Part shown: positions 3,624 to 22,221 of the stretch, one piece after another
How positions within the stretch are numbered: position 1 is the stretch's first letter
Layout: the number at the start of each line of letters is the position of its first letter
Assembly (NCBI GenBank): GCA_902781455.1
Contig: CACZJF010000001.1
Coordinates: 244,045-308,044, forward strand
Length of the DNA stretch: 64,000 nucleotides
Reading direction: 5' to 3'
Source: an uncultured Lachnospiraceae bacterium
GTDB taxonomy: Bacteria > Bacillota > Clostridia > Lachnospirales > Lachnospiraceae
Translations under genes and position numbers: made by a program
The notes under the pieces: generated by a model
What the model was told of the DNA's origin: nothing
What the model saw: only the letters and a program-made list of their open reading frames with translations
Databases searched by the model: none

Positions 3624-3632
3624 GGTTTTTAT

Positions 3633-3941
3633 CTAGATAATAAAAAATTCCGAAATCAGAACCACCACGCAGCACAGGCTTGCGACCTGCAGCAGGCTGC
3701 GGCCGAACCATGCGGCGAGGATGCCAGCGGCGAGGGCGAGGATGCCTGAGACAGGCGTCTGTGTGGATTCGATGATTGCGGGAAATGTCATCACCGCAAG
3801 GGTGACATACGGTACATAGTACAGAAAGGATCTCAGGAAAGGAGAACGGATCTTTCTGCGGATCAGGGTGACAGGCAGTGCGCGGATCAGATAGGTCACC
3901 GCAAACATAACCAGAATATAGAGATTGATGTTTTTGCTCAT
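3633..3941 (-). CDS. azlD: AzlD-family branched-chain amino acid exporter small subunit
   Basis: A 102-residue protein with three or four hydrophobic segments and the typical start LYILVMFAVTYLIRALP of AzlD proteins. AzlD works with AzlC, encoded 28 bases upstream, as a two-component exporter of branched-chain amino acids and analogues in the cytoplasmic membrane (known from Bacillus subtilis 4-azaleucine resistance and from BrnFE of Corynebacterium). Length agrees with the family. It is the third gene of the larB-azlC-azlD run. Confidence 0.85.
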   Translation of the reverse strand: MSKNINLYILVMFAVTYLIRALPVTLIRRKIRSPFLRSFLYYVPYVTLAVMTFPAIIESTQTPVSGILALAAGILAAWFGRSLLQVASLCCVVVLISEFFII

Positions 3942-3969
3942 ATCATCTGTCCTTATCAGCTGCTGTCAG

Positions 3970-7389: not shown

Positions 7390-8507
7390 GATCCCTCCTG
7401 CTTTCTTGCATAGAACGCAATCCGGCGGATCGTATCCTCATCGCACGGATACGGTGCCTTGGCGCATCTGGCCGGATTGGAAGAGACGTCTTTGCAGCTT
7501 TGCTCAATCACAGGCAGCAGTTGATCATCTTCTATTTCAAGATCATGGCAGCACAGTCTGTAGGCTGTGTGGAATTCCTCTGCGGAAGAGAATCCGGACA
7601 GCTCCAGAATCCTGGAAGCATCCTGCTGATCCGCCTCCTTCAGGTAGCCTGCCAGGAAGTAGCAGACCGCTTTGCCATGCGCCACATGCAGATGATATGT
7701 CAGCGCGTAACTGAGTGCGTGCGGAATGCTCGTCCCGGTGTGCGCGATCGCCATACCGCCCAGCATCGCCGCGCGCATCAGCGTATCATAGTCATCCGGA
7801 TCCGGCTGCTTTTCCTTTTTCAGGACAGGCAGGCACTTCTTCCATTCTCTGAGACCGTCCTCCGCGATCAGCCTGGAGATGGGGCCGGCATCCGCGTTCA
7901 GCCAGCTTTCATAGAGGTGAGCCAGCGCGTCAAACGCCGTATTGCACAGGACCTGGCCGCTCGCTCCGGCAAGATACTTCCCGTCGATCAGGGCAAGATC
8001 GGGAAAAATCTTATGCGGAATAGATCCCTTGGTATGTTTCACTTCATTGGTCAGAACAGAAACAGCGGTCACCTCAGATCCGGTTCCGCAGGTGGTCGGA
8101 ATGCATACCACCGGGACAGTACTGCTGTCAGCGTCTTTCGTATAAAGATAATCCCTGCCCTCGGAAGCATGCCGGATCATCAGCGCGATCGCTTTCGCCG
8201 CGTCCATAGGCGAGCCGCCGCCCGCGCCGATGACAAAGTCTGCCTTCTCCTGCACGCCAAAATCCCGCGCCTTCATGACAGTAGCGGCGGAAGGATTCTC
8301 CTCGACACCGTCAAACAGCGCATGTCCAATCCCGTACTCATCAAGCGCCGCGCAGATATCATCATACACGCCGCACGCCTTCGCGGAATGCCTGCCGGTC
8401 ACAATCAGCGCCTTCTTCCCCAGCTTCGCCAGATCCTTCGCATGTGACCTGACCACTTCCCGGCATGAGAATACTCTGACCGGCATATAGAAACGATCTT
8501 CTTTCAT
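7386..8507 (-). CDS. Iron-containing alcohol dehydrogenase
   Basis: A 373-residue group III dehydrogenase. The dinucleotide-binding part shows VIGAGGGSPMDAAKAIA and the metal site is provided by Asp in TAFDALAHLYESW and the histidines of HTGTSIPHALSYALTYHLHVAHGKAV. Such enzymes reduce aldehydes (butanol dehydrogenase-type) or other carbonyls with NAD(P)H in the cytosol; the substrate cannot be assigned. It lies 91 bases downstream of hydF on the same strand. A possible -10 (TATAAT, 8546-8551) suggests it may also start its own transcript with the HAD gene. Confidence 0.88.
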   Translation of the reverse strand: MKEDRFYMPVRVFSCREVVRSHAKDLAKLGKKALIVTGRHSAKACGVYDDICAALDEYGIGHALFDGVEENPSAATVMKARDFGVQEKADFVIGAGGGSPMDAAKAIALMIRHASEGRDYLYTKDADSSTVPVVCIPTTCGTGSEVTAVSVLTNEVKHTKGSIPHKIFPDLALIDGKYLAGASGQVLCNTAFDALAHLYESWLNADAGPISRLIAEDGLREWKKCLPVLKKEKQPDPDDYDTLMRAAMLGGMAIAHTGTSIPHALSYALTYHLHVAHGKAVCYFLAGYLKEADQQDASRILELSGFSSAEEFHTAYRLCCHDLEIEDDQLLPVIEQSCKDVSSNPARCAKAPYPCDEDTIRRIAFYARKQEGS

Positions 8508-8598
8508 CTTCCCTTCCTCCAGAACGTGAACTATGTCCCTGTTTCATTATATTCAGAAAGACCCGCTTGTGCTGTGACTAACGCCATAGAAGCGCCTG

Positions 8599-9831
8599 TC
8601 AGGGTTCCTTTGCTTCCGGAATCGGCTGCAGTGCCCGGTCCAGGATCCCGTGGACCTGGGCAATCACCATACCATAATTCGTGATCGGGATCCCGCGCCG
8701 TGCAGCCTTCTCATTGCGTGCGATGACTTCCTTCTCATTCAGCATACAGGATCCGCAGTGAATAATCACTGCATATTTCTCCAGGTCATCCGGAAATGAC
8801 AGCCCGGATGATGTCTCAAACACGGGCGCTTTCCCGGTGTATGTCCTGATCCACGCAGGCAGCTTCACCGTCCCGATGTCGCCGCACTGTCTGTGGTGGG
8901 TGCACCCTTCCGCGATCAGGATCCTGTCACCGTCTTTGATCTGCCGGAGCGCTGAGATCCCTTTCAGCTGTGCCTTCAGAACGCCTTTGTACCTTGCCAT
9001 CAAGATGGAGAAGGAGGTCATCGGGACATCCTCCGGAACCACTTTCGCAACCAGGCCAAATGCCTGGCTGTCCGTGATCACGAGCGACGGTTTCCGGGAA
9101 AGACCCTCCAGAACGCTCGCCAGTTCTTTCTCTCTGACACACAGGACCTGGCAGCCGTGATCCAGCAGATCCCTGAGAACCTGCTGCTGCGGAAGAATCA
9201 GCCTTCCCTTCGGTGCAGACTCATCGATCGGTATGACCAGAATCACAAGGTCCAGCGGTTGGACAAGATCAGCGGCAATCGGCTTTTCACGCGTCTTCTC
9301 CATCGCCCTGGCTGTCTGCCCAATCATTTCACGAAGCGGAGTCAGGTTTTCGCCGGTTTTGGCACTGACCCTGATCTGACGGACATTTTCCCCTACTTCA
9401 TGCCGGAAACCGACGCCCTCCGGTGCCTGCTCTGTGACAAGATCCGTCTTGTTCCAGGCGATGATGCAGGGCGTCTTCTGCTCCTGGAACAGACCAAGAA
9501 GTTCCCTGTCAAAATTGTTCAGTCCTTTCCGGGCGTCCACAACCAGAACCGCAAGATCCGTTCTGCCCAGAATCTCCCTGGTCTTTTCCACGCGAAGCTC
9601 ACCCAGTCCCCCTTCATCGTCGAATCCTGGCGTGTCGATGATGACAACCGGCCCGGCCGGAAGGATCTCCATGGACTTTGATACCGGGTCTGTCGTCGTT
9701 CCCGGAACGTCCGATACAACGGACATCTTCTGCGAAGTCAGCGCATTGACAAGACTGGATTTCCCGGCGTTGCGGCAGCCGAAAAAGCCGATGTGAAGCC
9801 GTACACTGCGCGGCGCGTCATTCATGCTCAT
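8599..9831 (-). CDS. hydF: [FeFe]-hydrogenase H-cluster maturation GTPase HydF
   Basis: 410 residues. The N-terminal GTPase domain has G1 GCRNAGKSS, G2 PGTTTDP, G3 DTPGFDD and G4 NKTD. The C-terminal part carries the HydF cluster ligands, CTH in EGCTHHRQCGD and HCGSC further on, matching the CxH...HCxxC pattern. HydF is the scaffold on which the 2Fe subcluster of [FeFe]-hydrogenase is built before delivery to HydA. Here it is the last gene of the nifH-like/hyp operon; its start (ATG 9831, AAAGGA upstream) overlaps the preceding gene by 14 bases. Its usual partners hydE and hydG are not in the window, so its client may be elsewhere or may be a product of this operon. Confidence 0.92.
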   Translation of the reverse strand: MSMNDAPRSVRLHIGFFGCRNAGKSSLVNALTSQKMSVVSDVPGTTTDPVSKSMEILPAGPVVIIDTPGFDDEGGLGELRVEKTREILGRTDLAVLVVDARKGLNNFDRELLGLFQEQKTPCIIAWNKTDLVTEQAPEGVGFRHEVGENVRQIRVSAKTGENLTPLREMIGQTARAMEKTREKPIAADLVQPLDLVILVIPIDESAPKGRLILPQQQVLRDLLDHGCQVLCVREKELASVLEGLSRKPSLVITDSQAFGLVAKVVPEDVPMTSFSILMARYKGVLKAQLKGISALRQIKDGDRILIAEGCTHHRQCGDIGTVKLPAWIRTYTGKAPVFETSSGLSFPDDLEKYAVIIHCGSCMLNEKEVIARNEKAARRGIPITNYGMVIAQVHGILDRALQPIPEAKEP

Positions 9832-11038
9832 AACTATATCCTTTGTTTCCTTTCATCGCATCAAACAGTGGACGGATCCGGTTAAGGTACATTCTGCCCG
9901 AAAGAGCAAAGTGCGGCATCTCCTCAAACCTGCAATCGCTCCGGCATGCTCCTCTCAGCATCGGATCCGCTGTCACTTCCTCATAACGGCCAAGGACATC
10001 CCGAATCTGCTGCTCTCCCGCCGGATGCGGCGCTCTGTCCGGAACAAGGCTCTGAACGGTCTCTGTCAGCGGAATCAGACTGCATGGTTTCCCATCTCTC
10101 AGAATCTTGTCCGCCGCGATGGATCCCATGATCACGGGTTCTCCGGCTGTACACCTGGCGTACTGCACATCTGTGTCTGCTGTCTGATTCTCTTCCAGCA
10201 GCTCCAGGTAGGCGGCTTTGCTCACCTGCTCTTCGGCGCACTGCCTGAGTGACCGGAACAATACTTCAGAAAATGCGCCGACGGGAATTCCTGCTGTATA
10301 GGGAATCCTGTACATCTCTTCCATCCATCTGGCAGTTTCGATTCCTGTCGAAGAAACAACGAGATTGACGTCCGTTTCCGGAAAGCCGGAAAGCTGTGTC
10401 AGGGAATCGCCTATCGCCCAGGTACTGACGACTTCAAACCCTTCCTTCTCCAGCATCTGCCGAAGCCGGTACGCGTCACTTCTTACGGTAAAGTCCAGCG
10501 GTGTCATTCCGAGAATATTGACCCTCAGTTTTCTTCCGTCTGCAGCAGGTCTGGAACGATGCTCCTTCCCAACTGTATCAGAAAGCATCCTCGCCAGCTG
10601 CAGTAAAGCGCTGCCCGCACCTTTCGTATAGTCATGCATCGCGTTCGTCTCTACATGAAATGTCCTGATTCCGCAGCTCTTTTCAACCTTCCGGCAGACT
10701 GCGTCGAAGTCTGTACCGATCAGCCATGGGATAGGGGAATTCGCGATCGCGATGAACGCGGGACGAAACCGCTCTGCCGCTGACACGATATCATCGACCA
10801 GCTTCTGGTCATTTCCGGTGATCGCGTCAAGCTGGGTCAGGCCGGACAGAAAGATCAGGCTTTCCATGTCCGTCCACCGGACCTCATCGTGGGTATTGTA
10901 GGTGGAATTGCAGCCGGAAGGATCGTGCATGACGACCATGCCGCCCAGTTCATACAAAGCGGAGCATACGCCGGAAACATCTCCGGTGTATACCGGCAGG
11001 CTCCACCATGTCTGTGTTTTCCAGTATTCTGGTGCCAT
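9818..11038 (-). CDS. Nitrogenase component 1-like protein (NifK-like, second pair)
   Basis: 406 residues with the oxidoreductase/nitrogenase component 1 fold: an N-terminal domain with SGVCSALYELGG and DPSGCNS (Cys25 and Cys43), a PIPWLIGTD motif near 110, and later Rossmann-like segments (RVNILGMTPLDF, VNLVVSSTGIETARW). It is paralogous to the protein at 17721-18893: both share SGxxSxxYxLGGMVVxxDxxGC and DExRW. Of the cysteines, only Cys43 lines up between the two. It would pair with the product of 11180-12580 and bind an interface Fe-S cluster (inference). The ATG at 11038 follows a GGAGAAGGGAG. The third P-cluster cysteine of true NifK/NifD is missing, so nitrogen fixation is unlikely. 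Confidence 0.85.
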   Translation of the reverse strand: MAPEYWKTQTWWSLPVYTGDVSGVCSALYELGGMVVMHDPSGCNSTYNTHDEVRWTDMESLIFLSGLTQLDAITGNDQKLVDDIVSAAERFRPAFIAIANSPIPWLIGTDFDAVCRKVEKSCGIRTFHVETNAMHDYTKGAGSALLQLARMLSDTVGKEHRSRPAADGRKLRVNILGMTPLDFTVRSDAYRLRQMLEKEGFEVVSTWAIGDSLTQLSGFPETDVNLVVSSTGIETARWMEEMYRIPYTAGIPVGAFSEVLFRSLRQCAEEQVSKAAYLELLEENQTADTDVQYARCTAGEPVIMGSIAADKILRDGKPCSLIPLTETVQSLVPDRAPHPAGEQQIRDVLGRYEEVTADPMLRGACRSDCRFEEMPHFALSGRMYLNRIRPLFDAMKGNKGYSYEHE

Positions 11039-11114
11039 GCTTCTCCCTTCTCCTTTGTATCCTGCAGGTAATTCCCAGACATAAAACCTGCAAACGCGCC
11101 TCAGCCGGCAGCTA

Positions 11115-11207
11115 CTTCGTTCTGGTCCGCGTATACGCTTCTACCGACAACCGCTTCGTTCTGGTCCGCGTATGCGTTTCTATCGGCAGCCGCTTTGTTC
11201 TGATCCG
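11115..11207. repeat. 39-bp tandem repeat, about 2.4 copies, at a gene junction
   Basis: Units start at 11115, 11154 and 11193 (the last partial), each beginning CTTCGTTCTGGTCCGCGTAT or a close variant. The array spans the 3' end of the NifD-like gene (stop at 11180-11182) and the 142-base gap before the next gene, the largest gap in this operon. The unit length is a multiple of three. No secondary role is evident. Confidence 0.8.
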
Positions 11208-12580
11208 GGAACCGCGCACAAGCTGGGCCAGCCCATTCCTTTTCTGGGGATGATCTCTCTGTAGTCGAGCTCCCTGGCGCACGCTTCCTCGATCAGGCCG
11301 CAGAGTTTTTGGATGCCCTGGTATCCCCACAGGCCGCCGCCTTCAATCATGTTGACAAAATGACCAGTCTGGCAGAACCATGCTGCCTTCTGGCCGATCG
11401 CGATGACATCGCGGCTGATGCCGTCGGGCCCCTCTTCCAGAATCTCTCTTCCCCTTCCGAACAGTGCCATCTGCGGGTGGACCGTCGCGACCATCATCAG
11501 GCCGGGACAGTGCATTTTAAGCCAGGAAAAGGCCTCCTCTTCCTCATCCAGGATTATATCCAGAAGGACACACTCCACCCGGATCCCATGCTCGATCAGC
11601 AGTCTGGCAATGCCTAGCGGTCTCGAGTGAGCCGTGTAATCGATCACGACAACTTGCCCGTCCAGGACATGGGCAAGATGGCGCAGTGATTCTTCACAGG
11701 CCTCCTCCTGCTCTATGATCCACGCCTCCGGCACAGGATCAAACCCGCAGGCCTCTGACAGGGACTGCAGCTGTGAACGGATCTCTCCATAGGAAACTGC
11801 GGCAGAAAGATACAGATACCTGCTTCCTGTCCGCTCAGACAGATTCCTGAGTGCGTCCTGCCCGTTCGGATAGGTACAAAGGTTCACCGCCGCATCGCCA
11901 AGTGCCAGAAACTGCTCAAAGGTTGAGCAGTCAGTGATCTGTCTTACGTCATACCCACGCGAAGATAGCAGAGTCACCAGCTCACTGTCCTTCTCAAACG
12001 GGACATCGCCTCCAAGGATATTGACCCTCTCCGGCTTCAGAGGCAGCGGCTCGATGATTGTGAATTCCGCCATCCGCAGTTTCATGTCGGGGCTGGGGCC
12101 TTCCTTCTGCCGGATGCAGTCCATATAGCCCTTCACAAACCGGATCTGCGGCCACCGCTTTCCAAGTTCGCGGAAGATATACGCCTCATCACTGCCGGTA
12201 AAGATATGCAGGCACACCAAAAACACGAAGACAACCGGCGGCTTGTCCGGAAGATGCGCGATCACATCCGAGACGCCCTCGATCGTAATGGTCTCCAGGT
12301 TGTCGACCTGCACATCGCGCTCCTGGATCGTTACGCTGTGAAAACGGTCACTGCAGCCCATCTCGGCAGCCGTCATCACAACGCCTCTCAGACAGTTGTC
12401 CGAGCATACATAGATGCTGTGCGACTCAGGGACTGCCATCCCGATATGGACGATATTCCACGTACCGTGTGCCGGCGCGTTGTACTCCAGCGTCCGGGGG
12501 AAGGGAAGCGGAAAGGAAGCATCAGCGATGCGCACTCCTTCCGGAACCATAGGATTCGACTTGGTTACTCTCTTCAGCAT
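11180..12580 (-). CDS. Nitrogenase component 1-like protein (NifD-like, second pair)
   Basis: 466 residues from ATG 12580, chosen because AAAGGA precedes it; a GTG at 12607 overlaps the previous stop but has no proper ribosome site. The protein aligns by eye with the product of 18905-20197: shared features are YNxP near 33, GxAxPES near 48, a cysteine in VCSDNCLR (Cys63) and a cysteine before a TGSD/GTD motif (LVCLHIFTGSD, Cys123). Extra cysteines are Cys59 and Cys76. A long Rossmann-rich C-terminal half follows. It is probably the alpha-type subunit of a heteromer with the next gene's product. The C-terminal end runs into a 39-bp tandem repeat. Confidence 0.85.
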   Translation of the reverse strand: MLKRVTKSNPMVPEGVRIADASFPLPFPRTLEYNAPAHGTWNIVHIGMAVPESHSIYVCSDNCLRGVVMTAAEMGCSDRFHSVTIQERDVQVDNLETITIEGVSDVIAHLPDKPPVVFVFLVCLHIFTGSDEAYIFRELGKRWPQIRFVKGYMDCIRQKEGPSPDMKLRMAEFTIIEPLPLKPERVNILGGDVPFEKDSELVTLLSSRGYDVRQITDCSTFEQFLALGDAAVNLCTYPNGQDALRNLSERTGSRYLYLSAAVSYGEIRSQLQSLSEACGFDPVPEAWIIEQEEACEESLRHLAHVLDGQVVVIDYTAHSRPLGIARLLIEHGIRVECVLLDIILDEEEEAFSWLKMHCPGLMMVATVHPQMALFGRGREILEEGPDGISRDVIAIGQKAAWFCQTGHFVNMIEGGGLWGYQGIQKLCGLIEEACARELDYREIIPRKGMGWPSLCAVPGSEQSGCR

Positions 12581-12603
12581 GCTTTTCCTTTCGTAGCGGG
12601 TTT

Positions 12604-12861
12604 TCACGCTCCGTCTGACATGACGTCCGAATATGTCGTACGGGTGGCAACGCCTTCCAGCTTCCCGATCTTTCCGGACAAAGCGGAGATCAGGTCCTGC
12701 GGCGCGTCAACCGCCACGCTGATGATGTTGATGTTTCTCTCTCTGTACGGAATGCCCATTCTGCCGATGATATAGTCAGAAGCTTCATGCAGATATTCGT
12801 TCAGCTTCTGGGTCTGAGACATGTCGGATACGATAATAGAGATCAATGCTACGCGTTTCAT
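12604..12861 (-). CDS. TM1266-family small ACT-like protein (iron-only hydrogenase system putative regulator)
   Basis: 85 residues beginning MKRVALISIIVSDM and continuing with GIPYRERNINIISVAVDAP, the hallmark of the TM1266 family. Members have an ACT/NikR-C-like fold and are usually encoded beside [FeFe]-hydrogenase maturation genes, hence the family name; a biochemical role is not established. Here it sits between hypE and a NifD-like gene. With hydF it gives the operon a second link to [FeFe]-hydrogenase biology. Length and sequence look complete. Confidence 0.88.
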   Translation of the reverse strand: MKRVALISIIVSDMSQTQKLNEYLHEASDYIIGRMGIPYRERNINIISVAVDAPQDLISALSGKIGKLEGVATRTTYSDVMSDGA

Positions 12862-12920
12862 GTGGCAACTCCTTTCGTTTATGATTTCACTTGCAGACTG
12901 CTTTCAGCCATTCACCCGGT

Positions 12921-13934
12921 TCAGCAGATCCTCGGAAGCAGCTCATTTCCCGGCTGGGGAAGGTAAGTCTGTGTCCCGAACGCAGTGCGCATCACCACAC
13001 GTCCCGGTTCCGTGTCTGTCACGGTTCCGATGACTGCGGCATGACGGCTGTGTTCCTGGGTGTGCAGAATCTGAAGCACCTGCCTGGTCTTCTCCTGCGG
13101 CACGATCATGACGAGGGTTCCTTCACAGGCAAGATACAGAGGATCCAGGCCAAGCAGGCCGGTGACACCGCTCACCGCCAGATCGATGGGAATCGCTTCC
13201 TGGTCCAGCAGAAAACCGACATTGCTTTCTCCTGCGATCTCATACAGGACCGTACCGACACCGCCTCTGGTGGCATCACGGATCACATGCACGTCGGGAA
13301 CTTCGCGAAGCACTGCCTCCACGCTGTTCCATAGCGGCGCGCAGTCGCTGGATACTTCTGCTTCGATGCCGAACTCGTCCCGCTCCAGGAGAATGCAGCA
13401 GCCATGCCTTCCGATATCGCCTGTCACCAGAACAGTGTCTCCCTTCTTCGCAAGGCTCCCGGAGGTATGGACACCGTCCATGATCTGTCCTACGCCGGTC
13501 GTCGTGATGAATACACCGTCTACCTGGCCTTTTCCTGCCACCTTGGTATCTCCGGCGACGATCACAACGCCTGCTTCCTTCGCTGTCTTCTCCATCGCGC
13601 AGACGATCTCTTCGAGCTGGTCCATCGGAAAGCCTTCCTCGATGACAAAGGCACAGGTGAGGTACAGAGGCTTTGCGCCCATGCAGGCAAGGTCATTGAC
13701 CGTGCCGCAGATGGAAAGTTTGCCGATGTTGCCGCCCCGGAAAAAGCGGGGGGATACGATGAATCCGTCTGTTGTCATGGCAATCCTGCCATCCGGCTGC
13801 GGAAGTGTGGCGGCATCATCCGCTGTGAAATATGGATTGGCAAAATGCGCCTTGAATACCTGCCCGATCAGCTCCGCTGTCTGTTTTCCGCCCGCACCGT
13901 GCGCGAGCGTTACTGTCTTTCCTTTCAGGTCCAT
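12921..13934 (-). CDS. hypE: Carbamoyl-dehydratase HypE
   Basis: 337 residues of the AIR-synthase/PurM-like family. HypE accepts the carbamoyl group from HypF on its C-terminal cysteine and dehydrates it with ATP to a thiocyanate, the source of the cyanide ligands of [NiFe]-hydrogenase. The N-terminal HGAGGKQTAELI and the C-terminal Pro-Arg-Ile-Cys are both present, so the swinging-arm cysteine is intact. IVAGDTKVAGKGQVDG and IRDATRGGVGTVLYEIA are typical family motifs. It lies 30 bases after hypD in the same operon. Confidence 0.95.
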   Translation of the reverse strand: MDLKGKTVTLAHGAGGKQTAELIGQVFKAHFANPYFTADDAATLPQPDGRIAMTTDGFIVSPRFFRGGNIGKLSICGTVNDLACMGAKPLYLTCAFVIEEGFPMDQLEEIVCAMEKTAKEAGVVIVAGDTKVAGKGQVDGVFITTTGVGQIMDGVHTSGSLAKKGDTVLVTGDIGRHGCCILLERDEFGIEAEVSSDCAPLWNSVEAVLREVPDVHVIRDATRGGVGTVLYEIAGESNVGFLLDQEAIPIDLAVSGVTGLLGLDPLYLACEGTLVMIVPQEKTRQVLQILHTQEHSRHAAVIGTVTDTEPGRVVMRTAFGTQTYLPQPGNELLPRIC

Positions 13935-13964
13935 GCCTGCCTCCTTATTGTTTTCCTGTTTTCC

Positions 13965-15038
13965 TTACCTCTGATACAGATAGAATGCCGAGCAGGCGCC
14001 TTCCGAGGACACCATGCAGGCACCCACCGGATGCTCCGGGCTGCAGCCCTTTCCGAACAGTGGGCAGTCCTTCGGCTTGATTCTGCCCTGAAGCACTTCT
14101 CCGCACCGGCAGCCTCTGGCTTCCTTTCCTTCGATCTTCGGCAGGTCATATTTCTTCCGGGCATCATAGGCGGCATAAGCGTCTCTCAGCTGCAGGCCGG
14201 AATGCTCCATCACACCGATCCCCCGCCATCTGGTGTCACAAGGCTCCATGTATTTCTCCACCAAAGCTCTCGCTTCCGGACTTCCCTCTTCCGTGACGAC
14301 CCTTGGATAGCAGTTTACAAGGAACGGCTTTCCTTCCTGTGTCTTTTTGACGATCACCGCGAGAGCGGTCAGAAGTTCCGCAGGCGTGAACCCGGCAACA
14401 ACACCGCTCATCCCAAGCGCAAGCATATCACGGCAGTCGCCAAGACCTGAGATAGCGCAGACGTGCCCGGGATAGAGATAAGCGTCAGTCGTGTTCATCA
14501 GGGCGCGGTACGCGGCCGGCATGGTCTTGTTTGCGCACAGCAGGCTGAAATTGTCCAGATTGTCATCAATCGCCTGCTCCAGGGCAATACAGGACGAAGG
14601 GGTTGTCGTCTCAAAACCGACAGAGAGAAATACCACCTGTTCTTCCGGATGTTCTCTGGCATAAACCTCCGCGTCCAGCGGAGAATACACCACCTGAATC
14701 CGGCCGCCCTTTCCCCTTGCTGTCTGCAGGCTCAGCAAAGATCCCGGCACCCGCACCAGATCACCGAAGGTCAGAATCGTACAGCCTTTCTCCAGCGCGA
14801 GGAATACCGCTTCATCGATAAAGGAAACCGGCGTCACACAGACAGGACATCCCGGCCCTGAGATCAGTTCGATGTCCTCTGGCAGAAGGCTGCGGATTCC
14901 CTGGCGGAAGATTTCATGCGTATGTGTCCCGCAGACCTCCATGATCCGGATCTTCGGTCCACGGTAGGAGGAGATAATCCCGCGCGCTTTCTCGATCGCA
15001 CTCTGTTCGCTGCTCTTTTCCACCTGATCTGTCATCAC
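13965..15038 (-). CDS. hypD: Fe(CN)2CO assembly protein HypD
   Basis: 357 residues. HypD holds the iron on which cyanide and CO ligands are placed, in complex with HypC. Motifs include IMEVCGTHTHE, GPGCPVCVTP and FLSVGFETTTP; the C-terminal cysteine-rich region (GCRCGEVLQG, DCPLFGKGCSPEHPVGACMVSSEGAC) supplies the 4Fe-4S cluster. The start (ATG 15038, a second ATG follows) overlaps the hypC stop. All the family cysteines I can check are present. Confidence 0.96.
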   Translation of the reverse strand: MMTDQVEKSSEQSAIEKARGIISSYRGPKIRIMEVCGTHTHEIFRQGIRSLLPEDIELISGPGCPVCVTPVSFIDEAVFLALEKGCTILTFGDLVRVPGSLLSLQTARGKGGRIQVVYSPLDAEVYAREHPEEQVVFLSVGFETTTPSSCIALEQAIDDNLDNFSLLCANKTMPAAYRALMNTTDAYLYPGHVCAISGLGDCRDMLALGMSGVVAGFTPAELLTALAVIVKKTQEGKPFLVNCYPRVVTEEGSPEARALVEKYMEPCDTRWRGIGVMEHSGLQLRDAYAAYDARKKYDLPKIEGKEARGCRCGEVLQGRIKPKDCPLFGKGCSPEHPVGACMVSSEGACSAFYLYQR

Positions 15039-15244
15039 AAAAGCTCCTCCATCAGACTGTTGGCCTCTTTCTCTTCATTTCCGGAGATCTTCGCGATGGC
15101 TGCTCCTGCATGCACCATCACATAATCACCCGGTACAAGGTCAGTCAGAAGCCGTGAGGATACCTCCCTGCGTGCGCCGGAAGCATCCACAATCGCCGAT
15201 CCTCCATTCACCCTGACTACTTTTGCTGATAATCCTACACACAT
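15035..15244 (-). CDS. hypC: Hydrogenase maturation chaperone HypC
   Basis: 69 residues. The start is ATG 15244, seven bases after AGGAGG, giving the required N-terminal Met-Cys (MCVGLSAKVV). HypC uses this cysteine to bind HypD and carry the Fe(CN)2CO unit to the hydrogenase large subunit. The small beta-barrel pattern with VPGDYVMVHAGAAIAKI is typical. The longer reading frame to 15367 overlaps hypF and would bury the essential cysteine, so it is rejected. Confidence 0.94.
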   Translation of the reverse strand: MCVGLSAKVVRVNGGSAIVDASGARREVSSRLLTDLVPGDYVMVHAGAAIAKISGNEEKEANSLMEELL

Positions 15245-15275
15245 AACTGTTTCCTCCTGTTCTGTAAACGTCATC

Positions 15276-17696
15276 CTATTCAGACGTTTTTGCCTGTATT
15301 CTTTCCGCCTCCCGCCGCAGGATTTCCTGCGCTGCGAGTGCCTGTCCCAGGCTGATGCCGCCGTCATTGGGCGGAATCAGATGATGGGTATAAACCTTCA
15401 TCCCGCCTTCTTCCAGTTTTCTTATCGTCAGTTCCAGAAGCAGCGTATTCTGGTACACGCCTCCGGTCAGCACAGCGCTTTTCAGCGCATATTTTTCAGA
15501 TGCCTCCAACAGCGCCTGTGCGATCAGAAACGCCAGCGCCTCATGGAACAGATACGCAAGTTTCTCTGAGCTGTTTCCTTCCAGATACGCCTCTATGATC
15601 CTGCGGACCAGAAGATCCGTCGGGAGGGTCATGAACCCGGCCGGGTCCGTATGCAGGACCAGTTGATCCCGGAATCTGTCCGCAGCGGTTTCAACCACAT
15701 CCAGAGCGCTGGTCTTTCGCCAGTGCTGCGCCGCGAACATCAGCGCGGTGGACGCTTCCCCTTCAAAGGTTGATGCCCGGCAGATGCCGAGAATGGCGCT
15801 GACCGCGTCATACAGCCTGCCGGCGCTGGTGGATGCCACGGTATTGATCCCCTTATCCGCCATACGTGAGATGGTCCTGATCTGGCTTTCTTCGCACAGG
15901 GATAAACGTCCGGCAATCTCCTGTGCTCTGGATTCTTCCGGATACAGCGCATGGATCATGGACGCAGCGACACGCCAACCTTCCTTCGAGGCCAGATCGC
16001 CTCCGACCATCTGAAAAGGTTTGATGCTGCCGATCCGCTCGAAGCCCGCCCGGTCCGCACGCATCAGCTCACCGCCCCAGATGGTGCCGTCCGTTCCCCA
16101 GCCGGTGCCGTCAAAGGACGCACCCAGAACCTCCTCGTCCAGATCATTTTCGGCCATGCAGGACGCTATGTGCGCGTAATGATGCTGGATCTGTATCAGG
16201 CGGATGCCCCGCTTTTTGGCAAGGTCCTGCGCAAACTGCGTCGACTGGTATCCCGGATGCAGATCACAGGCGATGATCTGTGCCTTGCGCTCCAGCAAAG
16301 CTTCCATCCGCATGACCGACTCGTCCAGTGCCCGGACTGACCTGGGATCCGCCAGATCTCCCACATAGGCGGAAGGATAGAACATCGATCCGATCCCGAT
16401 ACAGAACGTATTCTTCAGTTCCCCGCCGACCGCAAGAACGGTCTGGTTATAGCTTCCGCCGGTCAGAACCGGAAGCGGCGCGTATCCGCGGGATCTTCGG
16501 ATCATGTAAGGCTGTCCCTGGTAAAAGTCCATCACCGCATCATCGCAGCGGATCCGGATCTTTCTGTCATGGCTCAGGATCGCGTCCACGAAGCCGCCAA
16601 GCTCCCTGACCGCTTCCTCCTCATCGCGGCAGATCGGTGCGCCGGAAACATTGCCGCTCGTCATGACCAGTACTTCCGGCATGCTGACATCATCCGGATA
16701 GTCAAACAGCAGCATGTGCAGCGGCGCATAGGGAAGCATCACGCCGATCTTCGGATTGCCTGGGGCAACCGCCTCACAAAGGGGGGAATCGTCTCTTTTG
16801 TCCAGCAGCAGGATCGGTTTCTGGTATCCTGTCAGAATATGGCGCTGCTCTTTATTCAGATAACAGGAGTGCCTTACCGCCTCCTCATCCCGCATCATGA
16901 CGGCAAATGGCTTGACCGGGCGCCGCTTACGCCGGCGCAGCTGCGTCACCGCCTCCTGCGAGGTCGCGTCGCAGCACAGGTGGAATCCCCCGATCCCTTT
17001 CACCGCAAGAATTTTGCCCTCGCTGAGCATGCGCCTTGCAGCGCGGATCGCGTCTGCGCCTCTTTCCTTTCTTCCCACCAGAAATACCTGCGGGCCGCAG
17101 TCATTGCAGCAGACAGGCTGCGCGTCATATCTTCTGGACTGCGGATCTTCGTATTCCCGGGCGCACTCCGAACACATGGGAAACTCTTTCATGCTTGTCC
17201 TTGCCCGGTCATACGGCAGCTCGTCCAGAATCGTCAGCCTGGGACCACACTGCGTACAGTTGATAAAAGGGTGCAGGTATCTCCGGTTGCCGGGATCAAA
17301 GAGCTCTCTTCTGCAGTCAGGACAGGTCGCGATATCCGGTGAGATAAAGATCTCTCCTTTTTCTTTCTCACTCTCAACAATCTGAAAAGAGTCCATCTGC
17401 GGCAGATCTTCCGCGTCCTTCACGTCAATCTTCAGGATGACAGACCGTTCCGGCGGATCGTAACGCAGCGTATCGATAAAGTGCTCCAGCCCTTTCTCCG
17501 TTCCCCGCGCGATCACTTCGACATAAGAGCCTCTGTTGCAGACAGATCCCAGAATTCCCTGTTCCATGGCAGCTCTGCTGACAAATGGGCGAAATCCCAC
17601 CCCCTGCACAATACCGTACAGCCTGATTCTTTTGGTCTTAGTCAGTTCCGGCATGAAGCCCTGGCCCCCTTCTCTGTCTGCTAAGCGTTTTTTCAT
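15276..17696 (-). CDS. hypF: Carbamoyltransferase HypF
   Basis: 806 residues with the full HypF architecture: acylphosphatase domain (about 24-110, LYGIVQGVGFRPFV), two zinc-finger pairs (CPDCRRELF..CTQCGP and CSECAREYE..CCNDCGP), a YrdC-like domain (AIRAARRMLSEGKILAVKGIGGFHL) and a C-terminal Kae1-like domain (QHHYAHIASCMAEN, GASFDGTGWGTDG, LTGGVYQN, DGGISLGQA). It makes carbamoyl-adenylate from carbamoyl phosphate and transfers the carbamoyl to HypE. ATG 17696 gives 14 residues before a second Met; either could start. It lies 24 bases after the first NifK-like gene. Confidence 0.95.
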   Translation of the reverse strand: MKKRLADREGGQGFMPELTKTKRIRLYGIVQGVGFRPFVSRAAMEQGILGSVCNRGSYVEVIARGTEKGLEHFIDTLRYDPPERSVILKIDVKDAEDLPQMDSFQIVESEKEKGEIFISPDIATCPDCRRELFDPGNRRYLHPFINCTQCGPRLTILDELPYDRARTSMKEFPMCSECAREYEDPQSRRYDAQPVCCNDCGPQVFLVGRKERGADAIRAARRMLSEGKILAVKGIGGFHLCCDATSQEAVTQLRRRKRRPVKPFAVMMRDEEAVRHSCYLNKEQRHILTGYQKPILLLDKRDDSPLCEAVAPGNPKIGVMLPYAPLHMLLFDYPDDVSMPEVLVMTSGNVSGAPICRDEEEAVRELGGFVDAILSHDRKIRIRCDDAVMDFYQGQPYMIRRSRGYAPLPVLTGGSYNQTVLAVGGELKNTFCIGIGSMFYPSAYVGDLADPRSVRALDESVMRMEALLERKAQIIACDLHPGYQSTQFAQDLAKKRGIRLIQIQHHYAHIASCMAENDLDEEVLGASFDGTGWGTDGTIWGGELMRADRAGFERIGSIKPFQMVGGDLASKEGWRVAASMIHALYPEESRAQEIAGRLSLCEESQIRTISRMADKGINTVASTSAGRLYDAVSAILGICRASTFEGEASTALMFAAQHWRKTSALDVVETAADRFRDQLVLHTDPAGFMTLPTDLLVRRIIEAYLEGNSSEKLAYLFHEALAFLIAQALLEASEKYALKSAVLTGGVYQNTLLLELTIRKLEEGGMKVYTHHLIPPNDGGISLGQALAAQEILRREAERIQAKTSE

Positions 17697-17720
17697 TTTC
17701 TGTCTTCTTCTCGAACCGGG

Positions 17721-18893
17721 TTATCCTGTGATTTTCCCGGAATCTTCCCTCTTCTTTCGGATCCGGTCGATTGCCGCCTGCCCGGACACCGCGAAGTGAA
17801 AAGCGTCGATCCATTTTCCCTTCCAGTCTGCAGCCATCGGCCGGAGGGTCGGATCCGCGATGATCAGATCCCAGTTTGCTTCTCTTACAAGGGTGGTGAA
17901 ATCATCTTCTTCCTTCAGTCTTACGTCTGTGTCCTGCGCAAGTTCCTCTCTCATCTCAAACCAGGAAGCAGCCGTGATCTTTCCCTGCATGCCGGCTTCA
18001 GTCAGTCTTCGGCGGATCGCATTGGCCAGAACCTGCTGATGCACGACAAGGATTCTGGTATCCGGGCCATAAGAAGCCGCCTCACAGACAGGATTCTCCT
18101 CCAGCAGAATCATCGGGTCTGCCGGAAATGTGATTTCGTACGGTGTCCCATACTGCTTCTTCAGATATTCTGCCGCTTCGATCCCTGCAGGAGAGACCAC
18201 GTAATTACACACGGAGAGCGGACACTTTCTCAAAGCGTCCACCCCCGGATCCATCCCGGGAAGCAGCACTTCCTCATAACCTTGCCCCAGAAGGGAAGTC
18301 CGGATCGCAGCCGTCCACGACGGGTCGAACAGATCCAGCGGGTTCAGTCCCAGAACAGAGCAGATTCTACTGTCCTGCCCGGCACCAGCCGGTCTTTCCG
18401 AAGCAAACGCCTTCATCAGCGCAAGCAGCGTCTGCTCCATCCCTTTGTCATACAGATGCATCCCGTCCGTCGGAACCGCGATGCAGGGCAGATGCAGCGC
18501 CTTGCGCAGGATCGTGGCATCCGCGAAAAGATCCGTCCCGATCACGGCAGGAACCGGTGTACCCACCAGCGCAATAAAGTTTGCGTCGATCTTCTTCGAC
18601 GCTTCCTCCACCTTTTGGATCAGGAGGTCGTCCCTTCCCAGAATGGCATCCATATCCCGAAGACCGGCGCTGAACACAGCCTCCACATGAGGCGCCGTTT
18701 CCATGACAGCGTTCTGGCCATTGAAAGTCGACAGATAATCCGGCTGCCATCTGGGCTCGTCAAACCCGCAGATGTTGCCCGCGCAGCCGCCTGCGTCCAC
18801 GATGACCACCATCCCGCCAAGCGCATAACACATCGATACCGCGCCGGACTGATCCGGCGCAAACGGTGTCAGATATTTCCGTAGTCCTTTCAT
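17721..18893 (-). CDS. Nitrogenase component 1-like protein (NifK-like, first pair)
   Basis: 390 residues, paralogous to the product of 9818-11038. Shared positions are SGAVSMCYALGGMVV, the DAGGC cysteine (Cys37), DEPRW and PVPAVIGTD; extra cysteines are Cys22 and Cys42. Later segments (ICSVLGLNPLDLFD, NYVVSPAGIEAAEYL, WDLIIADPTLRP) look like the stacked Rossmann domains of the component 1 superfamily. It is encoded 11 bases after its likely partner at 18905-20197. Substrate unknown; absence of a full P-cluster ligand set and of nifB in the window argues against dinitrogen reduction. Confidence 0.85.
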   Translation of the reverse strand: MKGLRKYLTPFAPDQSGAVSMCYALGGMVVIVDAGGCAGNICGFDEPRWQPDYLSTFNGQNAVMETAPHVEAVFSAGLRDMDAILGRDDLLIQKVEEASKKIDANFIALVGTPVPAVIGTDLFADATILRKALHLPCIAVPTDGMHLYDKGMEQTLLALMKAFASERPAGAGQDSRICSVLGLNPLDLFDPSWTAAIRTSLLGQGYEEVLLPGMDPGVDALRKCPLSVCNYVVSPAGIEAAEYLKKQYGTPYEITFPADPMILLEENPVCEAASYGPDTRILVVHQQVLANAIRRRLTEAGMQGKITAASWFEMREELAQDTDVRLKEEDDFTTLVREANWDLIIADPTLRPMAADWKGKWIDAFHFAVSGQAAIDRIRKKREDSGKITG

Positions 18894-18904
18894 CTTCCTG
18901 TCCT

Positions 18905-20197
18905 TCAGATCACCTGATCCATTTCTTTGAGCAGCGAATCAAGCGCCGCGTATCCGTAAGGCTGTAAATCACTGTTCCAGAAGACATGTGCCGCCTGCGG
19001 GTGGTAATACGCCGCATCCTTGCCAATTGTCAGCCGGACCGGATCTGTCTTCTCTTCATAGTAAATCATCGATGGATCCTGATTGCAGTAAACTTTCGTA
19101 TCCGGACTGATGGCGGAGAGCGCCTTCAGGAACCACTGGCTCTCTTCCGTTACCGTCGCAAAGATCTCCTTTACCAGAAGGCCGCCGGAAGCAAGCGTCA
19201 GCGCCAGCTCGAAAGGATCCGCGTTGGCGCATTCTCCGATCGATACCTCCAGCCCCCTCCTGCTGCCGCAGAACGCGTCAAACTGCCTGACAGCACTGAG
19301 ATAATCCTGTTCATCATCGATGCGGATACCAGTGGCATGTGAAAATGCGCCGTACTGCCTGTGTATGCGTTCCGGGTCATAGAACCGGCGAAGCGCGACA
19401 TAAGGAATCTCCAGTCTTGCAGCCAGGTCTTCCGCCGCAGGCGCGCACTCCGGATTCAGCACGATGTTGAAATTCGCTTCTGCCATCTCCAGAAATTCCG
19501 GATAAGTCCTGCATGTCGAAAGCTGACGGATCTGCCGGATCCCCGCCTGTGTCAGGTAACGAAACAGTTCACAGTCATCGGACAGGGGTGAGAAGAATCC
19601 CAGCAGATTCACAGATGTACTTACTCTTTCTCTCTTTTCCAGAAGAGAATACAAAGACTGCCTGACATGAACCATCGGAGGACGGATGCCCTCTCTCGTC
19701 AGCGCATACATGTAGCAGGGACGGACCTTCACGCCGCTTGTCTCTTCTGCCTTCCGGCACACACGGTCCCAGTCTGTTCCCAGCAATGCGTCCGCGCAGG
19801 TCGCGCAGATCATGACCAGGGCCGGCTTTACTTCCAGAAAGTCGACAATCTCACAGACCGCCTGCGGGATACTCTTCAGGTGGCGTCCGGTGACAAGATC
19901 TGTCTCATCCATCTGGAGATAGAAGAAACGGTTCTGATACTGCGGCATGCTGCTGATCTGTGAGGTATTGCGGCCGCAGCAGCCGGGCGACACGATCAGC
20001 ATAACTGATTCAGGGATCGCAAGGCCTGCCCTCTTTACGCCGAATCCTTCCGCGCCGGGGGAATTGTACGCAAGCGTCGCAGGGCTGCTGAAGACCAGAT
20101 GCTTTGTCACCTGATAAAGATCCGGTATTCTGTCCGCCCCGGCAAGCGCTTTCACAGTATAGCAGGAAGGAACTCCTGGTTTCGTACTGATCGTCAT
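18905..20197 (-). CDS. Nitrogenase component 1-like protein (NifD-like, first pair)
   Basis: 430 residues of the nitrogenase component 1 superfamily. Visible anchors are LAYNSPG near 43, GLAIPES near 58, [10 protein letters not shown] (Cys73 and Cys74) and [14 protein letters not shown] (Cys131 and Cys134). Cys74 and Cys134 align with Cys63 and Cys123 of the paralogue at 11180-12580. These probably ligate a 4Fe-4S cluster at the interface with the partner subunit (inference from nitrogenase and protochlorophyllide reductase structures). Its ATG overlaps the stop of the nifH-like gene by four bases, so reductase and this subunit are made together. Confidence 0.87.
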
Positions 20198-20937
20198 AAC
20201 AGTCTCCTTGCCAGATCCATGAAGGTCTTGCTGACCTCCAGACTGATGTCACCTTCGATCACCGTTTTTCCTTCTTCCTCAAAACGGATGATGTCATCAC
20301 TGCGCGGAATCTCTCCTACAATCTCCAGGTTTCTTTCCTGCGCGAACGCACGCACCTTCTGTGTCTCATTCTCCACATTCCTGTGGTTCAGGATCAGTCC
20401 CAGAACCCTGGCGTAGCTGCGGTCCTCGAAGTTCTTCACAGCACGGTTGATGTTGTCTGCCGCGTACAGGGCCATCTTCTCCCCGCTCGTCACAATCAGG
20501 ACATTCTGCGCATAGCCCTCCCGGATCGGTGCAGCGAAGCCGCCGCAGACGACATCTCCCAGGACATCATACAGAACCACATCCGGCTTCCAGGTCTCAA
20601 ACAGCTTCAGTTCCTCCAGCAGCTGGAAGGTCGCGATAATACCGCGGCCCGCGCAGCCAAGCCCGGGCGTCGGCCCGCCGGTCTCGATGCACAGAACGCC
20701 TTTGTACCCCTCTGCGCTGATCTCATGATAGTCCGTGGGATACGTATCCTTGTCACGGAGGTAATCCATCACCGGCTCCACAGCCTTCCCGCCCAGCAGG
20801 TTGATTGTGGAATCCGCTTTCGGATCGCAGCCAATCTGAATTACCCTCTTTCCCAGCGACGCGAATGCCGCCGAGAGATTCGCGGTCATCGTTGACTTAC
20901 CGATTCCGCCCTTCCCATAGATCGCAAGCTTTATCAT
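20194..20937 (-). CDS. NifH/BchL-family ATP-dependent reductase (nitrogenase iron protein-like)
   Basis: 247 residues. The P-loop [10 protein letters not shown], switch region CDPKADST, and the two cluster cysteines (GLGCAGRG near 97 and VVCGGFAAP near 131) are all present, so the homodimer should carry the bridging 4Fe-4S cluster and deliver electrons on ATP hydrolysis. Close in kind to NifH, but shorter at the C terminus than true NifH (about 270-296). It is the first gene of the operon and presumably feeds one or both component 1-like pairs downstream. The start follows a duplicated AGGAG-containing 15-mer. Confidence 0.93.
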
Positions 20938-20946
20938 ACCTTCTGA

Positions 20947-20976
20947 TGCTCCTGTATAAAATGCTCCTGTATAAAA
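20947..20976 (-). repeat. Perfect 15-bp tandem duplication carrying the ribosome binding site of the nifH-like gene
   Basis: On the minus strand TTTTATACAGGAGCA occurs twice in direct succession, then ATCAGAAGGT and the ATG at 20937. Each copy holds an AGGAG; the nearer one is 11 bases from the start. Such a duplication can alter translation efficiency. Confidence 0.8.
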
Positions 20977-21008
20977 CGCTGTCTGCCCGGCAAAGATGCT
21001 GCCTGCGC

Positions 21009-21042
21009 AAAAAGACTGCGCGCTCCGGAAAGCGCGCAGTCT
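21009..21042 (-). terminator. Intrinsic terminator in the leader of the nifH-like operon
   Basis: AGACTGCGCGCT (right arm on the plus strand 21013-21024) pairs perfectly with 21031-21042 around a 6-base loop, followed on the minus strand by TTTTT. It lies about 90 bases after the candidate promoter's start region and 70 bases before the first gene, the arrangement of a transcription attenuator. It could alternatively terminate read-through from the 2-hydroxyacid dehydrogenase gene, 200 bases upstream. Confidence 0.8.
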
Positions 21043-21133
21043 GGTGTCAGTCTTTTCTATGCCAGATATCAGCCGCTATTCCGGTTCGGAAACTTCCTTA
21101 CCGTCAGAGCGATATAGTGTTCTGATCAACGAT
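21043..21133 (-). promoter_or_regulatory. Structured leader RNA before the attenuator, possible riboswitch or protein-binding leader
   Basis: Between the -10 box and the terminator lies about 90 bases with alternative pairings: ATATCGCT with AGCGGCTGATAT as an outer stem, and GGAA-GT-TTCC or TTCCG-AAC-CGGAA as mutually exclusive inner hairpins. I could not match it to a riboswitch class I know, including the molybdenum-cofactor motif. The region 20938-21246 has no gene. Confidence 0.4.
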
Positions 21134-21162
21134 ATTGTACCTTATGTTGTTCTTTTATTCAA
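21134..21162 (-). promoter_or_regulatory. Promoter of the nifH-like/hyp/hydF operon
   Basis: Minus-strand TTGAAT (21157-21162), 17-base spacer, TACAAT (21134-21139): a good sigma-A-type match about 200 bases upstream of the first gene. Transcription from it passes through the structured leader and terminator. Confidence 0.65.
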
Positions 21163-21246
21163 GAGCCTGGTCCCCATCACTGCCCTGCTGTCAAGCATGG
21201 CAGTCTGCCTGCTCAGTGGCATCGATGCCTAGATGGTAACCGCGAC

Positions 21247-22221
21247 TCAGTATCCAAGCTCGCGGTTCACAACATGCGTGAGTGGGTTTCCCTCGGAGAA
21301 CGCCTTGAGGTTTTCACCGCAGATTTTTACGACACGGTTCAGGGTCTCATCCAGCTGCCACCATCCCGCGCTGTGCGGCGTAATCAGGACATTCCGGTAA
21401 TCCCAGAGCGGGTGGTCTGCCGGAAGTGGTTCCGGCTCGGTTACATCAAGCGCGGCGCCGCGGATCTTGCCGCTGTCAAGCGCACGCATCAGCGCGTCGG
21501 GATCAATTGCGTTGCCCCGCCCGACATTCAGGATGCAGGCGCCCTCCTTCATCAGCGCAAATGCGCTGTCGTCGATGATGTGCTCCGTCGCTTTTCCGCC
21601 CGGAAGGACCATCGCAATGATGTCTGCTCTCGGAAGGACCTCGTCCATACGGTCAACCGTCACAACCTCGTCCAGCTCCTCCGGCTTCGGTCCCTCATGC
21701 CGGCGCACGCCGATGACATAAGCGCCCAGAGCCTTCATCTTTCTGGCATAGAAACTCCCGATATCTCCTGTACCGAGTACGACAGCAACCGATCCCTCGA
21801 TCGCCAGGACGGGGCGCAGCGGTCCCCAGACATGATTCTGCTGGTCACGCGCGTACTCCGGAAGATTACGCGTCATGGACAAGGTCAGAGCCAGCATATG
21901 CTCTCCGACTGACAGGGAAAATGCGCCTGATGAATTCGTCAGGACACAGGAGTCAGGCAGGATCCCTTTCGCCGCAAACATGTCCGCCCCGGCTGACGCA
22001 AGCTGCACCCATTCCAGATGAGGAGCCTTGTTCAGCATGGAAGGCGGGAAGAAATTAATTGTCGCAACCGCGCTTTCCAGATCTTCTTTTGTCATCTCTT
22101 CCGGCGCGCGGAAAACAAGCTCCAGCTTTCTGGGACCGGCACAGGCACACTCTTCCAGGTAGCGAAGATGATCCTGCGTAAGCGGGAAGATACGGGTACT
22201 GACATAAACCTTATCTGACAT
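21247..22221 (-). CDS. D-isomer-specific 2-hydroxyacid dehydrogenase
   Basis: 324 residues. The nucleotide-binding motif is VVLGTGDIGSFYARKMKALG, and the catalytic residues are Arg in NVGRGNAID, Glu in DVTEPEPLP and His in ITPHSAG. Members reduce 2-keto acids (pyruvate, glyoxylate, hydroxypyruvate, phenylpyruvate) with NAD(P)H; the exact substrate is not deducible. It has its own promoter and a 130-base leader with a small hairpin (22308-22330). It lies upstream of the nitrogenase-like operon but is separated from it by a promoter and terminator. Confidence 0.9.
   Translation of the reverse strand: MSDKVYVSTRIFPLTQDHLRYLEECACAGPRKLELVFRAPEEMTKEDLESAVATINFFPPSMLNKAPHLEWVQLASAGADMFAAKGILPDSCVLTNSSGAFSLSVGEHMLALTLSMTRNLPEYARDQQNHVWGPLRPVLAIEGSVAVVLGTGDIGSFYARKMKALGAYVIGVRRHEGPKPEELDEVVTVDRMDEVLPRADIIAMVLPGGKATEHIIDDSAFALMKEGACILNVGRGNAIDPDALMRALDSGKIRGAALDVTEPEPLPADHPLWDYRNVLITPHSAGWWQLDETLNRVVKICGENLKAFSEGNPLTHVVNRELGY

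Follow-up and report, generated by a model that had tools for sequence, protein, structure and literature searches.

We describe an operon of eleven minus-strand genes in a stretch of 64,000 nucleotides (hereafter the window) from the genome of an uncultured Lachnospiraceae bacterium, in which genes for nitrogenase-like proteins, for HypF, HypC, HypD and HypE and for the [FeFe]-hydrogenase maturase HydF follow one another. A reading made from the sequence alone had placed these genes and proposed that the mixture points either to a reductase whose own cofactor contains cyanide- and CO-ligated iron or to a new route to such a cofactor. All eleven genes are confirmed where it had placed them, and their identities hold by curated models or Pfam (Table 1). 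From the conservation of the neighbourhood and the company that it keeps, we argue that the operon is probably a route by which the [2Fe] subcluster of [FeFe]-hydrogenase matures without HydG.

Table 1. Genes of the operon, listed in the direction of transcription (window coordinates).
Gene product	Coordinates	Strand	Evidence
H: NifH-like ATP-driven reductase (component 2)	20194..20937	-	PF00142 293.7 bits; TIGR01287 nifH 298.9 bits, under equivalog cut-off 394; in the tree apart from NifH and BchL
alpha-1 ('D1'): nitrogenase component-1-like alpha subunit	18905..20197	-	PF00148 87.8 bits; NifD Cys88 and Cys154 kept, Cys62 and Cys275 not; AlphaFold pLDDT 80.9, component-1 fold
beta-1 ('K1'): nitrogenase component-1-like beta subunit	17721..18893	-	PF00148 53.8 bits; NifK Cys95 kept
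HypF carbamoyltransferase	15276..17696	-	TIGR00143 751.9 bits, cut-off 466
HypC, start at conserved MCVG	15035..15244	-	PF01455 73 bits
HypD	13965..15038	-	PF01924 438 bits; TIGR00075 377.8 bits
HypE, PRIC at end	12921..13934	-	TIGR02124 414.3 bits
TM1266-family protein, putative [FeFe]-hydrogenase system regulator	12604..12861	-	TIGR03959 111.7 bits, cut-off 60.8
alpha-2 ('K2'): second alpha-like component-1 protein	11180..12607	-	PF00148 65.1 bits; tree position with alpha-1 and other alpha-like rows
beta-2 ('D2'): second beta-like component-1 protein	9818..11038	-	PF00148 104 bits; AlphaFold pLDDT 75.1; top fold matches DPOR B subunit and NifEN
HydF GTPase, scaffold for [2Fe] precursor	8599..9831	-	TIGR03918 541.8 bits, cut-off 325.6

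The genes are tightly packed, as the sequence-only reading had it, with overlaps of 4, 4, 4 and 14 bases and gaps of 11, 24, 30 and 59 bases; only its largest gap changes, from 142 to 141 bases. The gap between HypF and HypC is 31 bases if HypC begins at its MCVG motif (window 15244). It had also described two NifDK-like pairs, and there are indeed four PF00148 proteins, but the tree reassigns the members of the second pair, making the product of 11180-12607 alpha-like and that of 9818-11038 beta-like. In both pairs, then, the first gene is alpha-like and the second beta-like. An Rfam scan of window 8000-22000 gave no match, and promoter and terminator patterns stay near chance level. A 39-base tandem repeat (2.4 copies, window 11115-11207) overlaps the 3' end of alpha-2 and extends into the gap before beta-2.

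How widely is this gene set kept? We searched for alpha-1 in 295 genomes of the window's order and call a genome with a match at E ≤ 1e-100 a cluster genome; there are 15 such genomes, among them the window's own, whereas 39 pass the looser threshold of E ≤ 1e-10. Neighbourhoods were read in 13 of the 15 (all except G281 and G293), some of them cut by contig ends. Among the 24 weaker-matching genomes seven were read (L047-L052, L140), and six of these hold sets of H, D and K genes with no hyp genes in the stretch. One weaker match, G151, whose genus holds two cluster genomes, has alpha-2 and beta-2 at a contig edge. A search over the class (391 genomes) brought 21 matching genomes at E ≤ 1e-25. 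At E ≤ 1e-170 there are ten, not counting the window's own, and they are taken as cluster genomes by score alone. Finally, a named collection (contigs of one genome per species) yielded 465 stretches with a relative of alpha-1, of which we kept the best 80, hereafter the 80 loci. Their carriers include Roseburia faecis, Coprococcus comes, Blautia luti, B. massiliensis, B. schinkii, Faecalicatena contorta, Eubacterium uniforme, Sharpea azabuensis and Atopobiaceae.

The neighbourhood is thus widespread and not confined to one genome: the gene set recurs in Lachnospiraceae, in other Clostridia and, by record names, also in Sharpea and Coriobacteriia. The shared gene order is H, alpha-1, beta-1, HypF, HypC, HypD, HypE, TM1266, a second H in some, alpha-2 and beta-2, often followed by HydF and HydE. 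The window's operon has one NifH-like gene. Many of the 80 loci are cut by contig ends, and with that reservation the counts are 71 for HypF, 63 for HypD, 61 for HypE, 54 for alpha-2, 46 for beta-2, 40 for TM1266, 25 for HydF, 21 for the second H and 13 for HydE. HypF, HypD and HypE are present in every one of the 58 loci that have 7.5 kb or more of downstream DNA, so that the association goes beyond chance. In Sharpea an [FeFe]-hydrogenase gene heads the operon and HydF and HydE end it (HydA-H-a1-b1-HypFCDE-a2-b2-HydF-HydE). Relatives across the order, the class and the named collection rule out an artefact specific to the window. In the flanks of the 80 loci no unlabelled gene family occurs in more than 13, and we reject an unknown target gene there; the family that reaches 13 is ABC transporter ATPase-like, judged by eye.

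The second line of evidence is an absence, one that the sequence-only reading had not noticed. No cluster genome of the order (15, among them G269, which is one contig and 100% complete) has a HydG match over the cut-off. Nor has any of 42 further cluster genomes, made up of the ten from the class and those of 32 among the 80 loci. As far as can be told this amounts to 56 distinct cluster genomes, since G684 (B. schinkii) is the same genome as G173. The search that covered the 15 took in 34 genomes, and six of the 19 without a cluster have HydG. Lesser matches to the HydG model do occur, in 40 of the 42 further cluster genomes for example. Those checked are HydE in seven of seven cases (the window's genome included) and ThiH in two of two, these two coming from the matches at about 1e-49 to 1e-66; a hidden HydG is therefore rejected. 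The weaker matches in cluster genomes stop at or before position 401 of the 470 in the profile, and therefore do not include its C-terminal part.

Order-wide counting (HydF at E ≤ 1e-60 and HydG at E ≤ 1e-100 in the 295 genomes) gives 153 genomes with HydF and 133 with HydG: 128 with both, 25 with HydF alone and five with HydG alone. HydG accompanies HydF in 128 of the 139 HydF-positive genomes without a counted cluster, versus none of the 14 HydF-positive cluster genomes (Fisher p 1.9e-13, a value that is too optimistic because the genomes are related and no correction for kinship is made). Four genomes of one genus (G017, G252, G260, G268) have yet another arrangement, in which TM1266, HydE and HydF stand near a gene for a 580-residue protein with neither HydG nor a match to the Nif/Hyp cluster (L132:7047-11298, also L133, L134, L135). 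In L132, where this gene was scanned, it encodes a B12-binding radical S-adenosylmethionine (SAM) protein of the DUF4080 family, and the set is perhaps a third way of replacing HydG.

If HydG is missing, are the partners and the client of HydG still there? Of the order's 15 cluster genomes, 14 have HydF. HydE passes the cut-off of TIGR03956 in all seven proteins checked, that of the window's own genome (L130) with 552.9 bits. The [FeFe]-hydrogenase family PF02906 is found in all 15. Its presence by itself proves little, because it occurs in 274 of the 295 genomes of the order, also in some where neither HydF nor HydG was found. We scanned for the H-cluster motifs TSC[CS]P, MPCxxK and MxCxxGC, a scan that covered 30 of the 36 PF02906 matches: all three motifs are present in 11 of the 15 cluster genomes, and two of the three in G238 and in the window's own. 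The hydrogenase protein of the window's genome exceeds the cut-off of the curated model for monomeric (group B) [FeFe]-hydrogenase. For two cluster species there are activity measurements. According to PMC12773636, B. luti is an H2 producer with H2:methyl viologen activity up to 644 mU/mg and two [FeFe]-hydrogenases, and B. schinkii has a hydrogenase activity of about 23,000 mU/mg. We searched genomes of both species, the strains of which may differ from those of that paper, and found the cluster in each and detected neither HydG nor a [NiFe] large subunit.

Two observations on hydrogenase-family genes stand apart. In four f11 genomes (L156, L166, L167, L171) such proteins carry an altered motif, LSCEFGC, and we take them to be perhaps sensory, group C-like. 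In L037 a hydrogenase-family gene for 558 residues (2599-4275) lies directly ahead of TM1266 and HydF.

Next we consider the Hyp proteins. Across the 80 loci, HypC begins with MCVG in 59 of 59 proteins, and all 60 HypE proteins with 300 residues or more end with PRIC; taking these, as we do, to be the functional ends, cyanide synthesis looks intact. The [NiFe] large subunit (PF00374) was not found in seven of the 15 cluster genomes of the order or in 40 of the 42 further ones, which makes 46 of the 56 distinct genomes, a figure that includes incomplete genomes (the window's at 81%, G287 at 71%) and named ones, most of them without stated completeness. Hyp is thus usually without its classical client. 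Compared with [NiFe]-hydrogenase maturation, HypF, HypC, HypD and HypE and their MCVG and PRIC ends are the same, whereas the operon holds neither HypA nor HypB.

In an alignment of the nitrogenase-like component-1 proteins, NifD Cys88 and Cys154 and NifK Cys95 are kept, and NifD Cys62 and Cys275 and NifK Cys70 and Cys153 are not, which leaves the six P-cluster cysteines incomplete. At the place of Cys275, a ligand of the iron-molybdenum cofactor (FeMo-co), there is a gap in all 18 aligned alpha-1 and alpha-2 rows. These assignments go by the known roles of the NifD and NifK positions. An extra cysteine adjoins Cys88 in alpha-1 and lies four residues ahead of it in alpha-2. Judged by this alignment, the kept cysteines would be enough to bind one [4Fe-4S] cluster per alpha/beta interface, in the manner of NifEN or DPOR, and a FeMo-co is not supported. 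We reject nitrogen fixation, with the FeMo-co ligand absent and no nif cofactor genes in the operon. The window's alpha-2 is without both C-terminal cysteines of a CxxC motif that is complete in seven of the eight other aligned alpha-2 rows. In 21 of the 80 loci alpha-1 and beta-1 are fused into one open reading frame of 771-877 residues, so the two very likely form one complex.

The AlphaFold models (alpha-1 and beta-2) resemble structures of nitrogenase, NifEN and DPOR, the best Foldseek matches being 4wes_B for alpha-1 (E 1.3e-17) and 2ynm_D for beta-2 (E 2.5e-13); the Mar structure 9fmg is among the fold matches. In a tree of 57 rows, with two Nif and two Bch sets from plasmids as references, the cluster rows form separate groups (support 100/100) together with Treponema-type relatives. 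A place within a known functional clade would have spoken against the sequence-only reading; in this tree, which holds no Cfb or Mar sequences, the component-1 proteins fall outside the Nif and Bch clades. Cfb models stay below their cut-offs (NF033200 293.5 bits against 402; TIGR03282 27.9 and 18.8 bits against 268). The deep order is weakly supported, with unstable branching among alpha-1, alpha-2 and the outgroups. The sister of the window's alpha-1 comes from another family, in Sharpea (support 100/99), which suggests horizontal transfer of the operon. Sets of H, D and K genes also stand beside iron ABC transporters on plasmids of Treponema saccharophilum (L277) and Sporomusa termitida (L282), with further sets in L047-L052. 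The Treponema-type sets are the nearest tree relatives of the cluster component-1 proteins, and the Sporomusa rows are long branches of unsure place. Unlike the operon, the L277 and L282 sets have a single pair and transporter neighbours, and their stretches show neither hyp nor hyd genes. With NifEN and DPOR (BchNB/BchL) the operon shares a NifH-like reductase, the alpha/beta component-1 fold and the interface cysteines, and with NifDK/NifEN the duplicated pair, and the alpha-beta fusion of 21 of the 80 loci likewise counts among the similarities; it differs in its separate clades, in its Hyp and Hyd partners, and in having no cysteine at the NifD Cys275 place, where NifE has one.

Taken together, the synteny, the absence of HydG, the presence of HydF, HydE and HydA, the usual absence of [NiFe]-hydrogenase, the intact ends of the Hyp proteins and the hydrogenase activity of two cluster species make it quite probable that the operon replaces HydG, a conclusion well supported by genomics. 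Set beside HydEFG maturation, the target enzyme and the TM1266 companion are the same and HydF and HydE pass curated cut-offs where checked, but HydG, which makes CO and cyanide from tyrosine, is absent and the operon has Hyp and nitrogenase-like proteins. On balance, if only just, we favour a second, independent biosynthesis of the H-cluster, in which cyanide comes from carbamoyl phosphate via Hyp and the two nitrogenase-like complexes carry out ATP-driven organometallic chemistry on Fe(CN)2CO, with a so far unseen H-cluster precursor as a possible product; CN/CO exchange, reduction of CO2 to CO or reduction of Fe(II) are its candidate reactions. Of the two proposals in the sequence-only reading, the new route to a CN/CO-iron cofactor is the line followed here, and a reductase with such a cofactor of its own is less likely, because the alpha-like proteins are without the FeMo-co cysteine and the genes travel with maturases.

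How could such a pathway run? HypF and HypE would draw cyanide out of carbamoyl phosphate, and HypC and HypD would hold and ligate the iron, by analogy with [NiFe]-hydrogenase maturation, where the Hyp proteins make Fe(CN)2CO and HypCD carries one CO. An iron-cyanide-carbonyl unit, most likely Fe(CN)2CO, would pass to complex 1 (alpha-1/beta-1) and complex 2 (alpha-2/beta-2), each with interface cysteines of the NifEN/DPOR type and each fed with electrons by the NifH-like protein in an ATP-driven manner. The complexes would reduce and rearrange the unit, perhaps adding CO, to give a synthon that HydE would dimerise and HydF deliver to HydA. Two successive steps are suggested by the gene order, which puts complex 1 beside hyp and complex 2 beside HydF. 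In the conventional route, according to PMC11736057, HydG converts tyrosine to CO and cyanide and supplies Fe(CO)2CN to HydE, and the presumed product of HydE is loaded on HydF. To reach the substrate of HydE, CO or an exchange of cyanide for CO is needed, along with reduction, and the nitrogenase-like complexes with their reductase are the obvious candidates for this. We infer that the operon itself causes the maturation, that Fe(CN)2CO is handed over, and what role each nitrogenase-like complex plays. That Fe(CN)2CO itself is the intermediate has about an even chance, and that CO supply is the main job of the nitrogenase-like part seems to us doubtful.

A different division of labour, by ligand, is possible if unlikely: Hyp would give the cyanide, one or both nitrogenase-like complexes would reduce CO2 to CO, and assembly would take place directly on HydE and HydF with no scaffold role for the complexes. 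It rests on the same genomic evidence as the pathway that we favour, nitrogenase proteins are able to reduce CO2 to CO, the interface cysteines are kept, and no other obvious CO-making gene lies in the operon. However, two paralogous complexes with different neighbours, hyp for one and HydF for the other, suggest two steps rather than one source of CO, and HypCD as known already brings one CO. Less probable still, and in our view improbable, is a CN/CO-iron cofactor for some unknown enzyme, possibly a nitrogenase-like protein itself, with HydG replaced otherwise or unneeded. A maturation pathway with two full component-1-like pairs would be unusual, several genomes have HydE and HydF elsewhere, and some HydF-positive genomes without HydG are without the cluster too; against this, the absence of HydG follows the cluster across several families, HydF, HydE, TM1266 and, in Sharpea, HydA lie inside the operon, and the flanks offer no recurrent family beyond the ABC transporter ATPase-like one. 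That the hyp genes serve a standard [NiFe]-hydrogenase, beside which the nitrogenase-like neighbourhood would be incidental, is contradicted by the synteny kept across phyla (by record names) and by genomes, complete and near-complete ones of the order among them, in which no such enzyme was found, even though large subunits with both metal motifs, Ech-like, occur in eight of the 15 cluster genomes of the order and a bare PF00374 match in two of the 42 further ones.

Several observations weigh against HydG replacement by the operon. The stoichiometry is awkward: Hyp would supply Fe(CN)2CO and HydE is fed Fe(CO)2CN, so that a further step must exchange a ligand or add CO. Eleven HydF-positive genomes have neither HydG nor a counted cluster; two of them (G151, G174) share a genus with two cluster genomes, four are the genomes with the 580-residue gene described above, and five (G008, G053, G082, G129, G156) are without explanation. 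In G156 (100% complete, 5% contaminated) HydA, HydE and HydF stand together (L138:5805-9678), again with no HydG and no match to the Nif/Hyp cluster. Among cluster genomes, HydF was not found in G281 (90% complete); G281 and G287 have only hydrogenase-family proteins with degenerate motifs; G667 and G668 gave no match whatsoever to the HydG model, hence not even HydE; and G238 has its genes spread over about 17 kb, with alpha-1 and beta-1 fused and no HypE in the parts that were read. In several genomes (G269 and G135, for example) HydF and HydE are encoded away from the cluster, ten of the 56 have a [NiFe]-hydrogenase gene, and HypB, not found in the window's genome or operon, is over its cut-off in 23 of the 56, 16 of them without [NiFe]; with 23 of 56 only, HypB seems to be no regular part of the set. 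Finally, according to PMC9431212, about 1% of HydA activation is reached in vitro by HydE and HydF without HydG, and its authors name atypical radical SAM proteins as candidates for HydG. We disfavour such low-level activation as the explanation because the activity in B. schinkii is high.

We found no published description of a pathway with this gene set, which is weak evidence since the search covered open-access literature only, with preprints and most subscription journals outside it. Each component comes from a known family; the novelty lies in the combination and the chemistry that it implies. A related puzzle is on record: PMC9431212 covers eight Clostridium acetogens, five of which possess HydE, HydF and HypCDEF and no recognised HydG, with no straightforward explanation.

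If the operon replaces HydG, then HydG is no longer the sole assumed source of the CO and cyanide of the H-cluster, and the puzzle of the acetogens without a recognised HydG may find its explanation. The Hyp pathway and the nitrogenase family would join in one organometallic pathway, a hint at further abilities of nitrogenase-like proteins; by the reading favoured above, many hydrogen producers of the gut would use members of this family on an iron-carbonyl-cyanide substrate. The single Sharpea stretch, from HydA through HydE, would be a ready set for heterologous hydrogenase production. The human-gut genera Blautia, Roseburia and Coprococcus would make the cofactor of their H2 enzyme in this way, and genome surveys that require HydG would miscall them.

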